Position numbers and translations under genes: made by a program. Shown one piece after another: positions 41,241 through 44,216 of a stretch of DNA of 48,216 bases; within the stretch, counting starts at the first letter, position 1; every line of letters begins with the position of its first letter. A model generated the notes under the pieces. It saw nothing but the letters and a program-made list of their open reading frames with translations. It did no database searches and had not been told where the DNA came from. The stretch is from Pseudanabaena frigida (GTDB lineage: Bacteria > Cyanobacteriota > Cyanobacteriia > Pseudanabaenales > Pseudanabaenaceae): assembly GCA_003242085.1 (NCBI GenBank), contig QBML01000038.1, positions 34,539-82,754 of the forward strand, written 5' to 3'.

Positions 41241-41332
41241 CAAAATAGGAGCTTTACGCCTATTTTGCTCTCTAGTCATTATGGCGATTGCTATACAATA
41301 GTAAACTTGTCGTGAGTTTTCACATTTCTGCT

Positions 41333-42379
41333 ATGAGCTATTTTCGCCCTGCTATTGATGCTATGACTGGCTATGTTCCTGGGGAACAACCAAAGTCGGG
41401 TATCAAAGTTATCAAACTAAACACTAACGAAAACCCCTATCCGCCTTCGCCAAAAGCGATCGCCGCTTTGCAAAGTATTGATGGTGATTCTTTGCGGCGT
41501 TATCCCGATCCTTTTGCCTCCGAATTTTGTCAAGCAGTAAGCAAGGCTCTGGATATTCCTGCGGATTGGGTAATTGTGGGTAATGGCAGTGATGATGTTT
41601 TAAATATTTTGATCAGGGCTTGTGCCGAAGGGGACGATCGTAAAGTTGTTTACCCAATGCCCACCTATGTGCTTTATCGCACTTTGTCGGCAATGCAGCC
41701 AGCGAAAATAGTTGAAGTTCCCTATAGTGAAAATTTTCAGTTGCCGATCGCCGAACTTGTGGCGGCAAATGGTGCAGTGACCTTTATTGCTTCTCCTAAC
41801 AGCCCATCAGGTCATATGGTGCCATTGGATGATTTACGCAAATTGGCGCAGCAGGTATCGGGCATTGTGGCGATCGATGAGGCTTATGTTGATTTTGCAG
41901 AGTATTCAGCCTTGCCATTAGTACGTGAATTCGACAATGTGATTGTCCTACGTACTTTATCGAAGGGGTATTCGCTAGCAGGTTTACGATTAGGTTTTGG
42001 TGTGGCGAATCCCAGCTTGCTTTCAGGATTATTTAAGGTTAAAGATAGCTATAACATTGATGCGGTAGCGATCGCGATGGGTACGGCATCAATGCGCGAC
42101 CAAGAATACAAAAAGTCAAATGCTGAAAAAGTCAAAATCTCACGCACCAAACTTTCTCTAGATCTACAAAATCTTGGATTTACCGTCTTAGAGTCTCACG
42201 GTAATTTTGTACTAGCTACACCACCTAAAGGTAATGCTGAAGAGATTTATTTGAAACTCAAAGAATTCGGCATTTTAGTACGCTATTTCAATCAAGCAGG
42301 ACTATCCGACAAGTTACGCATTACTGTTGGTACTGATGAGCAAAATCAAGCTCTGATTGATTTTTTATCCACTCTTTAG
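41333..42379 (+). CDS. hisC: histidinol-phosphate aminotransferase
   Basis: 348 residues from the ATG at 41333; an earlier TTG would add 15 residues without family support. PLP-dependent fold type I: NTNENPYPPSP, VGNGSDDVLNILIRA, VAIDEAYVDFAEYS, and the PLP lysine in LRTLSKGYSLAGLRLGFG. It transfers the amino group from glutamate to imidazole-acetol phosphate in histidine synthesis. It follows rbcR on the same strand with 92 bases between and is probably its own transcript. Confidence 0.9.
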   Translation: MSYFRPAIDAMTGYVPGEQPKSGIKVIKLNTNENPYPPSPKAIAALQSIDGDSLRRYPDPFASEFCQAVSKALDIPADWVIVGNGSDDVLNILIRACAEGDDRKVVYPMPTYVLYRTLSAMQPAKIVEVPYSENFQLPIAELVAANGAVTFIASPNSPSGHMVPLDDLRKLAQQVSGIVAIDEAYVDFAEYSALPLVREFDNVIVLRTLSKGYSLAGLRLGFGVANPSLLSGLFKVKDSYNIDAVAIAMGTASMRDQEYKKSNAEKVKISRTKLSLDLQNLGFTVLESHGNFVLATPPKGNAEEIYLKLKEFGILVRYFNQAGLSDKLRITVGTDEQNQALIDFLSTL

Positions 42380-42410
42380 CATTTTCTAATTGACTTATGA
42401 GCTAATTTCT

Positions 42411-43586
42411 ATGACACAGCTTAATATTAAAAATCTAGGTCAAATCAAGAGTGCAAATATAGATTTTGGCGATCTAACTCTTTTTGTTGGGCCTCAAGCT
42501 ACAGGGAAGAGTATTTTATTACAACTCATAAAGTTGTTAATTGATGGCGAGAATATTGCAGCTACTCTCATGAAATATGGATATCAATGGGAAGATGATT
42601 TATCCAAGTTCAATGAGCTTTACTTTGGCGAGGGAATGTGTAATCTTTGGAGCGAAAGTACAGAGGTAATTATTGACGACGAAGAGATATATCTAGATGC
42701 TCTATTGCCATATGAACTGTCAGAGGAATATGAATATATCGATGAGCCTGAACACATATTTTTTATGCCTGCTCAACGTGTGTTAACTCTTGAGAATGGA
42801 TGGCCCCGTTCTTTTACTAGTTTTGAAATCGGAGACCCATATGTTGTTTGTAAATTTAGTGAGCATCTTCGGTTACTAATGCAACAAGGGTTTATGAGTA
42901 AAGATAAAGACAGTGCTATTTTTCCTCAAACAGGAAGACTTAAACAAGAAATAAGTGATGCTCTTGATGTCAGTATTTTTCATGGCGCTAAAGTTGAACT
43001 AAATACAGTTGAAATGCGGAAACGTATTCAAATTAATGTTAATGGTAATTTGTTGCCATTTATGGCTTGGTCGGCTGGACAAAGAGAGTTTATGCCTTTA
43101 CTGTTAGGGCTTTATTGGCTAATGCCTGTATCAAAAGATTCAAAGAAATCGGATATAGATTTTGTAGTTATTGAAGAACCAGAAATGGGTTTACATCCCC
43201 GCGCAATTTTGTCGGTTATTTTGATGTGTTTAGACCTCTTACACCGAGGCTATCGTTTACTTGTTTCTACTCATTCACCTGTCCTTTTAGAGGCAATTTG
43301 GGCAATTCGTAACTTACAGAATAATAATTCTGATGTTAAGTATCTCTATCAACTTTTTGATTTAAACCCGTCACCACCTATGACTGAACTTTTTGAAAAC
43401 ATCCTTAAAAACAAGAAGTTTTTCACCTATTATTTCGATCAAAAAGAAGATGGTGTTGAGGTACGTGATATTTCATCATTAGATCCATTTGATGAGGACT
43501 TGTCAACTGCTGATTGGGGTGGTTTAACTAGTTTTAGTAGCAAAGCATCTGAAGTTGTTTCTCAGGCGATTCAAGACACACTATAA
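42411..43586 (+). CDS. AAA-family ATPase (AAA_15/OLD-like ATPase head)
   Basis: 391 residues from the ATG at 42411 (an upstream TTG is unlikely). An SMC/ABC-type ATPase head: Walker A GPQATGKS at residues 27-34, a long inserted middle, signature-like WSAGQRE, Walker B FVVIEEPEMGLHP and the switch histidine in STHSP. There is no Toprim nuclease domain after it, unlike OLD/GajA proteins. A second gene 8 bases downstream encodes a small nuclease-like protein, so the two form an operon, as in anti-phage modules such as Septu. Located between hisC and a tRNA gene. Confidence 0.75.
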   Translation: MTQLNIKNLGQIKSANIDFGDLTLFVGPQATGKSILLQLIKLLIDGENIAATLMKYGYQWEDDLSKFNELYFGEGMCNLWSESTEVIIDDEEIYLDALLPYELSEEYEYIDEPEHIFFMPAQRVLTLENGWPRSFTSFEIGDPYVVCKFSEHLRLLMQQGFMSKDKDSAIFPQTGRLKQEISDALDVSIFHGAKVELNTVEMRKRIQINVNGNLLPFMAWSAGQREFMPLLLGLYWLMPVSKDSKKSDIDFVVIEEPEMGLHPRAILSVILMCLDLLHRGYRLLVSTHSPVLLEAIWAIRNLQNNNSDVKYLYQLFDLNPSPPMTELFENILKNKKFFTYYFDQKEDGVEVRDISSLDPFDEDLSTADWGGLTSFSSKASEVVSQAIQDTL

Positions 43587-43594
43587 GTTTTAAA

Positions 43595-44029
43595 ATGGAT
43601 TTTAAAGAAGCGATCACTGCAACACCTTCACTAAAAAATGCTTATAAAAATGGGTTGCAAGCATTAGGAAATTATAGTAATAAGGTCAAACCAACTGACA
43701 CAAAAAAGTGTGAAGGTAGTGTCGATATTGATGCTGCTGTTAATCAGATTTACCCTAATGATTCACGTTGGGATTATGCAATGGGCTATGATGGGACAAC
43801 ATATTTTATTGAAGTGCATAGCGCTGAGACATCTCAAGTTACACCAGTTTTAAAAAAATTTAGGTGGCTAAAAGACTTTTTAGTAACAGATGCTCCCGAG
43901 TTAAACAAACAGCAAAAGAAGCGTTTTTATTGGATAAGTTCAGGTGGTAATAATATTTTACGAGGCAGCCCCCAAGCACGACAGTTAGCACAATCAGGGA
44001 TTACGCTTGATAGACAACTTAATTTATAA
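43595..44029 (+). CDS. small nuclease-like partner of the AAA ATPase
   Basis: 144 residues, no membrane helix. I do not recognise a named family. The motif RWDYAMGYDGTTYFIEVHSAETSQV has the shape of the PD-(D/E)XK nuclease core (Asp60, then Glu73-x-His75 where most have Glu-x-Lys), with an upstream acidic GSVDID. If so, it is a variant nuclease; an inactive structural role is also possible. Encoded 8 bases after the ATPase gene and ends 4 bases before the 3' end of tRNA-Ala on the opposite strand. Confidence 0.55.
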   Translation: MDFKEAITATPSLKNAYKNGLQALGNYSNKVKPTDTKKCEGSVDIDAAVNQIYPNDSRWDYAMGYDGTTYFIEVHSAETSQVTPVLKKFRWLKDFLVTDAPELNKQQKKRFYWISSGGNNILRGSPQARQLAQSGITLDRQLNL

Positions 44030-44033
44030 AAAA

Positions 44034-44106
44034 TGGAGAATAGGAGGCTCGAACCCCTGACCTCTGCGGTGCGATCGCAGCACTCTACCAACTGAGCTAA
44101 TTCCCC
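44034..44106 (-). tRNA. tRNA-Ala (anticodon CGC)
   Basis: A 73-base cloverleaf reading on the minus strand: acceptor GGGGAAT/ATTCTCC with the G3-U70 pair that identifies alanine, D arm GCTC...GAGT, anticodon stem CTGCG/CGCAG with loop ATCGCAC (anticodon CGC), T arm AGGGG-TTCGAGC-CTCCT and discriminator A. CCA is not encoded. The anticodon stem-loop includes a complete HIP1 octamer (GCGATCGC). It converges on the ATPase/nuclease pair. Confidence 0.95.
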
Positions 44107-44216
44107 AACAGGTTATAAATACTAGCATATTTACAATTACTGCCACACGCCTTAAGACGAATTGAGAATATAAATTAAGGTACTAATAAGAATAGTATTC
44201 TTGAAAATAATTGGGT

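Follow-up and report, generated by a model that had tools for sequence, protein, structure and literature searches.

A PDC-M56-type gene pair encoding an SMC/ABC-head ATPase and a predicted PD-(D/E)XK-like protein beside hisC in Pseudanabaena frigida, a candidate defence module

Introduction

The defence systems closest to the locus described here couple an ATPase with a nuclease. Septu follows an HNH design, in which the partner of the ATPase PtuA is the HNH protein PtuB, and PtuA-PtuB also serves as the effector of retrons such as Ec78, Eco7, and Ec83. PARIS follows a Toprim design, as AriB carries a Toprim-type nuclease. To our knowledge, few defence systems have been worked out in cyanobacteria. 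Besides established systems, PADLOC holds a series of candidates named PDC, for which the cited source is reportedly a 2024 preprint by Payne et al. Two papers describe PDC systems as putative candidates obtained via “guilt-by-embedding” and released in PADLOC-DB 2.0.0 (PMC10855318, PMC12988326). Two other PADLOC candidates, PDC-M63AB and PDC-S04, gave no defence in the one model system in which they were tested (PMC12409345).

Here we analyze a two-gene locus in a 48,216-nucleotide stretch of the Pseudanabaena frigida genome (assembly GCA_003242085.1, contig QBML01000038.1, positions 34,539 to 82,754; referred to below as the window, with positions counted from its first letter). A first-pass annotation made from the sequence alone had marked the locus as a candidate ATPase/nuclease defence module, which agrees with a PADLOC catalogue entry, PDC-M56. 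The same annotation had stated that the small partner matches nothing known and had suggested a profile search against defence families; that statement does not hold, as the search identifies the partner as the already catalogued PDC-M56B and the ATPase as PDC-M56A. No paper naming PDC-M56 was found in a full-text search of open-licence literature other than preprints. What was already known is the catalogue entry, a defence candidate that is unproven; what we add is a fold and a site assignment for the small protein, counts of linkage, a copy embedded in a methylase/helicase operon, and the turnover of the pair at one site within a genus.

Results and Discussion

The Gene Pair in the Window

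The two genes, tentatively referred to as A and B, and their flanks are as follows:

41288..42379, + strand: hisC, left flank, matched in 25 of 26 genus genomes
42411..43586, + strand: gene A, PDC-M56A-type, 391 aa, a single SMC/ABC-head ATPase with no Toprim match in the searches given below
43595..44029, + strand: gene B, PDC-M56B-type, 144 aa, predicted PD-(D/E)XK-like nuclease (PADLOC profile and model)
44033..44107, - strand: tRNA-Ala(CGC), right flank, its 3' end toward the pair and 3 bases past the B stop

The location between hisC and a tRNA gene and the 144-residue partner starting 8 bases downstream of A on the same strand are thus as first described. A starts at a conserved ATG at 42411, the in-frame TTG at 42390 being the mechanical start. 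Since only 31 bases (42380-42410) separate the hisC stop from the start of A, the pair may be transcribed by read-through from hisC. A promoter and terminator scan at the pair gave counts at the level of shuffled sequence, and we claim neither. The pair is not a chance arrangement, as both families recur jointly in other genomes.

ATPase A

The sequence motifs of A, all present in its translation, are located as follows:

42489..42512, + strand: Walker A GPQATGKS, A residues 27-34
43068..43088, + strand: ABC-type signature WSAGQRE, A residues 220-226
43167..43199, + strand: Walker B VIEEPEMGLHP, A residues 253-263
43266..43280, + strand: H-loop region STHSP, A residues 286-290

A matches PDC-M56A (PDLC04710) with an E-value of 5.3e-175, residues 1-389 aligning to positions 1-380 of the 382 in the profile; its second-best PADLOC family is AriA (E 2e-23), and its Pfam matches include AAA_15 (E 1.3e-20), AAA_21, and AAA_23. 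The Walker A, Walker B, and STHSP motifs reported in the first-pass annotation are all present in the translation, together with the signature WSAGQRE, which had not been listed there. In an alignment of 14 copies (A4), the invariant positions are G27, Q29, A30, G32, K33, and S34 of Walker A, W220, S221, A222, G223, Q224, and E226 of the signature, and E255, E256, and E258-P263 of Walker B. STHSP is likewise invariant among these 14 copies, and is replaced by STHSS, STHST, and STHAP in the later copies L092, L093, and L096.

The model of A (mean pLDDT 84.9, with low confidence at residues 101-110) shows a head fold, so that Walker A, signature, Walker B, H-loop, and fold together bear out an SMC/ABC-type head, as do the Pfam AAA matches. 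The Septu ATPase PtuA is the best structural match (Z 17.0, rmsd 7.1 over 293 residues), and SMC/Rad50 heads match at about Z 15. No Toprim family occurs among all 6 Pfam matches, all 10 NCBIfam matches, and the best 25 of 112 PADLOC matches of A, in line with the Toprim-free ATPase first described; the profiles of OLD, GajA, and ATPase-Toprim_I-B, which from name or recall we take to include a Toprim part, align to A via the ATPase motif regions. Toward the C-terminus, residues 339-383 (with ISxLD and GGL) show strong conservation among the 14 copies and less in the more distant L092; this segment may contact B.

Armadillo-repeat profiles also matched A (residues about 281-328, E down to 1.2e-7). 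As the model places these residues within the ATPase head, we take these matches as spurious local similarity; none of them has a stretch passing on its own.

Protein B and Its Candidate Active Site

B matches PDC-M56B (PDLC04711) with an E-value of 2.4e-61, residues 2-143 aligning to positions 7-149 of 151, and this is its sole PADLOC match at E<=1. In other sequence searches with B, no Pfam family scored above the cut-off and no HNH match appeared at E<=1, NCBIfam gave no match, PHROGs gave E 0.063 at best, and a PDB sequence search gave only E 0.28 and above. No relatives of B were found in viral contigs or phage records.

The model of B, built from 14 aligned copies, has a mean pLDDT of 95.3. 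From the second helix on, its elements run helix, strand, short helix, strand, strand, long helix, short helix, strand, helix, strand. This order and the structural matches fit the alpha-beta-beta-beta-alpha-beta core of PD-(D/E)XK enzymes, the best match having a Z of 7.1 against a guideline of 8; a Z below 8 can reflect a common arrangement, and the fold of B does not by itself amount to proof. That match is Card1 (rmsd 3.6 over 123 residues, 9% identity), followed by Cdn1, Can2, and VC1899, and then by EndoMS, AF1548, Avs4, Hna, SfsA, and many restriction enzymes. We take the upper matches to be mostly PD-(D/E)XK enzymes, and those down to about Z 4 to be mostly nucleases; from Z 3.8 down, the entries include unrelated proteins, among them Sec4 and phosphoribosyltransferases, and NADH:quinone oxidoreductase is also found low in the lists. 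Foldseek gave nothing at E<=0.001; above this threshold its top rows are the nucleases Cdn1 and N.BspD6I, with some unrelated proteins further down.

Conservation was assessed in 28 distinct copies of B, i.e., the window and 27 loci with repeats removed, two of them from one Parapedobacter genome. The positions of interest are:

43730..43732, + strand: D46, candidate active-site acid, 28/28 copies
43772..43774, + strand: D60 (in WDY), candidate metal ligand immediately preceding the second core strand (model strand 61-65), 28/28 copies
43811..43819, + strand: E73-x-H75, at the position of the (D/E)xK motif inside model strand 68-78, 28/28 copies
43856..43858, + strand: K88, on the helix after the core strands (model helix 79-98), 27/28 copies, the remaining one having a gap

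G41, S42, D46, W59, D60, Y61, E73, and H75 are unchanged in all 28 copies, and D44 is kept in 25. The Asp...Glu-x-His array noted in the first-pass annotation corresponds to D60...E73-x-H75. In the model, the acidic pair D60 and E73 lies at the start of and inside a hairpin (61-65/68-78), and the candidate site falls at the predicted positions of the fold, with D60 before the second core strand, E73 in the third, and H75 at the place of the lysine. The catalytic lysine of (D/E)xK is itself missing from B, all 28 copies having H75 instead; K88 on the next helix might replace it. On account of the missing lysine, we call B PD-(D/E)XK-like, with a predicted E-x-H variant site, rather than filing it as a member of the superfamily. 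The nuclease-like character first proposed for the partner is borne out to this extent.

Linkage and Spread of the Pair

The first-pass annotation had held that its proposal would fall if the two genes were not linked in other genomes. In 26 of the 28 distinct copies (window copy included), B is immediately preceded by A on the same strand, and the pair occurs in Cyanobacteria, Bacteroidota, Planctomycetes, and Verrucomicrobiota. In the remaining two copies, B is either broken (L025) or without its N-terminal part (L095). The 26 include L052, where B is broken and A is reduced to a C-terminal fragment; elsewhere, a stop interrupts the C-terminal part of B in L048, and L096 has a late-starting open frame for B.

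A contig scan yielded 14 loci, which belong to Pseudanabaena (sp. UWO311, P. cinerea FACHB-1277, and sp. “Roaring Creek” among them), Planktothrix, another Oscillatoriales MAG, and Leptolyngbya among cyanobacteria, and otherwise to Cytophagales, Saprospiraceae, another Bacteroidetes MAG, Parapedobacter, and a Pirellulaceae MAG. One more copy lies on a plasmid of Opitutaceae TAV5. Genes A and B overlap end to start in 11 of these 14 loci, the B start codon being an assumption in three of the 11 (L048, L049, and L050), and such overlap suggests coupled translation. One Parapedobacter genome holds both a broken copy (L052 3070-3959) and an open one (L053 332-1947).

Within lineages the pair is patchy. 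Counting in each case the starting genome, known beforehand to carry the family, B is present in 5 of 386 sampled cyanobacterial genomes, 7 of 26 genomes of the window's genus (one of the seven broken), 7 of 10 genomes of the genus of G301, and 6 of 395 sampled genomes of the phylum of G436, a Cytophagales MAG. A at E<=1e-40 is present in 5 of 373 sampled cyanobacterial genomes, starting genome again included, with five candidates per genome scored and weaker relatives of A uncounted; these are the same five genomes that carry B. A probability of 1.7e-11 was obtained for the co-occurrence, but as it counts related genomes as independent samples, we give it no weight.

Turnover at the hisC/tRNA-Ala(CGC) Site

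Among the 26 genomes of the genus, the pair directly follows hisC in six (G000, G001, G002, G004, G008, and G022), and remnants persist in two others, a broken B in G021, where A was not found, and pieces of A in G018. In eight genomes, hisC and tRNA-Ala are 2-145 bases apart with no pair between them (the gap in G013 has a run of N), and in four (G006, G010, G015, and G019) 304-719 bases of other DNA lie between the two. tRNA-Ala(CGC) is absent from the stretch read in five (G007, G011, G014, G017, and G024), and one genome (G009) has no hisC match. Where the site is filled, the tRNA lies 3-4 bases past B in four of six cases and 718 bases away in G004, and the stretch read in G001 has no tRNA-Ala(CGC). 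On a hisC tree of 24 rows, which as a single gene adjoining the site is a guide only, the distribution of the pair needs six changes, at least three of them forced by well-supported branches, and the sister genomes G008/G016 and G004/G014 differ in the pair.

The identity to the window copy also swings along A and B within single genomes. The most variable stretch of A lies at alignment columns 80-120 (window 42648-42764, residues about 80-118); at these columns the G008 copy has 19% identity to the window copy, versus 100% in the last block of B. Such a mosaic pattern suggests allele exchange within the pair.

The first-pass annotation had pointed to the tRNA gene as a common integration spot. 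The variable half of that idea stands, since some genomes of the genus carry the pair at this site and others do not. Integrase-driven integration at the tRNA is unsupported: visual inspection of the ORFs adjoining the window pair revealed no recognisable integrase, and no att-like direct repeat shared by the hisC side and the tRNA end was found. As the simplest reading of the site history, we infer old residence with repeated loss, decay, and allele exchange, not repeated integration.

Other genes were seen at the same site, which seems to hold small variable genes. An opposite-strand ORF of about 215-263 aa, by eye presumably resembling Uma2-type proteins, occurs there in four Pseudanabaena-group genomes, in G004 beside the pair:

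L024 9778-10521; L025 10734-11471; L089 2582-3370; L091 297-941: opposite-strand ORF at the hisC/tRNA-Ala(CGC) site

In G021 (L025 8023-9697), two minus-strand ORFs lie between hisC and the broken B, the first of which resembles DUF3037 by eye.

These distributions bear on whether the pair serves the host in DNA repair or end processing, like a minimal Rad50-nuclease couple. Such a role would accord with the SMC/Rad50 heads, which match A not far below PtuA, and with EndoMS and other repair nucleases among the structural matches of B. However, patchy presence and decay in one genus, with sister genomes that do and do not carry the pair, ill suit a housekeeping function, as does the occurrence in 1-2% of sampled genomes in two phyla, and we consider a repair role quite unlikely.

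Neighbours of Copies outside the Genus

ORFs were listed around ten copies outside the window's genus, and the neighbours scanned were mainly those that already looked defence-like or mobile, so that the two defence settings found among these ten loci speak to existence, not rate. The defence reading of the first-pass annotation is in keeping with both. In the Pirellulaceae MAG (L050), the pair lies between an N6-methylase of 1458 aa (best PADLOC family DrmMI, E 6.4e-81; Pfam Eco57I) and a helicase of 1687 aa (best PADLOC family DruE, E 3e-89), all on the same strand, the gaps between these genes being about 34 and 10 bases. In Leptolyngbya PCC 6406 (L047), a PLD-SNF2 helicase and an HSDR_N protein precede the pair, and PDC-M28-like genes follow. 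These downstream genes (L047 8086-11201) comprise a PDC-M28 A match (E 2.8e-7) and a single 891-aa ORF with B- and C-like parts. By eye, the neighbours in Planktothrix (L041 and L044), at the other listed loci, and around the window pair look like ordinary genes.

The Pirellulaceae copy raises the question of whether A and B are subunits of larger Druantia/DISARM-like methylase/helicase systems, stranded and inactive when alone, as in the window. Lone pairs (the window pair, Planktothrix L041 and L044, and others) nevertheless keep open frames and conserved motifs, even if decayed copies also exist (L025, L052, and the pieces in G018), and we regard stranded subunits as very unlikely.

Besides these, the pair of Opitutaceae TAV5 adjoins a TrwC relaxase gene on a mobilizable plasmid, as might be expected of a toxin-antitoxin-like module in which B would be the toxic nuclease, A would neutralise it in an ATP-dependent manner, and the pair would be retained because it stabilises the element, not for phage defence. 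The two often overlapping genes and the small size of B would also fit, and the weak sequence matches of A include AriA (E 0.054), which PDB molecule names call an antitoxin. In the pair, however, the first gene encodes the larger partner, a conserved ATPase, and a plain addiction module would have no need to sit inside a methylase/helicase operon as one copy does. A toxin-antitoxin role, mechanically near to the explanation that we favor below, is unlikely in our view.

A Possible ATPase-Gated Nuclease

From the sequences, family membership, linkage, modelled fold, conserved sites, and setting, and by analogy with Septu and Rad50-type couples, we propose that the pair is a PDC-M56 member working as an ATPase-gated nuclease defence similar to Septu, in which an A-B complex is triggered to cut and infection is stopped; we put the probability of this reading at about 0.6. 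A would be a stand-alone SMC/ABC-head ATPase forming dimers or larger assemblies with ATP between the heads, and B a small nuclease of PD-(D/E)XK-like type whose active site is an E-x-H variant. ATP-bound A would form a complex with B and hold or position it, until B is released or activated by a phage-induced trigger, which might be DNA ends, a phage protein, or the loss of ATP or dNTPs. Once active, B would cut nucleic acid, perhaps DNA or tRNA, and thereby stop the infection.

The PDC-M56 matches, the linkage of A and B and their shared five genomes, the conserved motifs of A, the model and sites of B, the settings, and the patchy presence support a defence function. Against it stand the lack of a PDC-M56 paper in our search, the defence setting in only two of ten listed loci, the structural matches of B below Z 8 and above the Foldseek threshold of E 0.001, the histidine in place of the lysine, and the negative results for PDC-M63AB and PDC-S04. 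Taken together, the pair is real and conserved, and is probably a defence module.

A more far-reaching and rather doubtful extension is that PDC-M56 represents a separate, functional type of defence, in which a minimal Rad50/PtuA-like ATPase would gate a PD-(D/E)XK-like nuclease whose E-x-H active site is obligatory, either alone or as a plug-in of methylase/helicase systems. If true, it would link Septu-type effectors with Druantia/DISARM-type restriction. Should the pair prove protective at all, a catalogue entry would gain a function, and a further ATPase plus small-nuclease design would stand beside Septu and PARIS in cyanobacteria. The invariant acids and the E-x-H of B offer point mutants for a clean test.

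Comparison with Known Systems

Among CRISPR-ancillary nucleases (Card1, Can2, and Cdn1), Card1 is the top structural match of B and aligns in its C-terminal part, presumably its nuclease part. At 144 aa, however, B has no room for a CARF domain, and its identity to Card1 is low, as given above.

Gabija and OLD share with A an ATPase head of the same superfamily (A versus GajA, E 1.4e-9; versus OLD, E 3.2e-15). Unlike Gabija, A has no Toprim match among its best 25 of 112 PADLOC rows, and the pair is flanked by hisC and tRNA-Ala instead of a GajB helicase gene. Similarly, PARIS resembles the pair through AriA, the second-best PADLOC family of A (best stretch 166-292), whereas an AriB match is absent for B.

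Septu shares with the pair two genes encoding an SMC-like ATPase and a small nuclease (predicted in the case of B), and PtuA is the best structural match of A. However, the PtuA profile covers only A residues 178-307 (E 5.5e-8), and B has no PtuB match and is modelled as PD-(D/E)XK-like. The closest system is PDC-M56 of PADLOC-DB 2.0.0 itself: both window proteins match its profiles nearly end to end, the B protein is encoded directly downstream of the A protein, and we saw no difference between the window pair and the catalogue entry.
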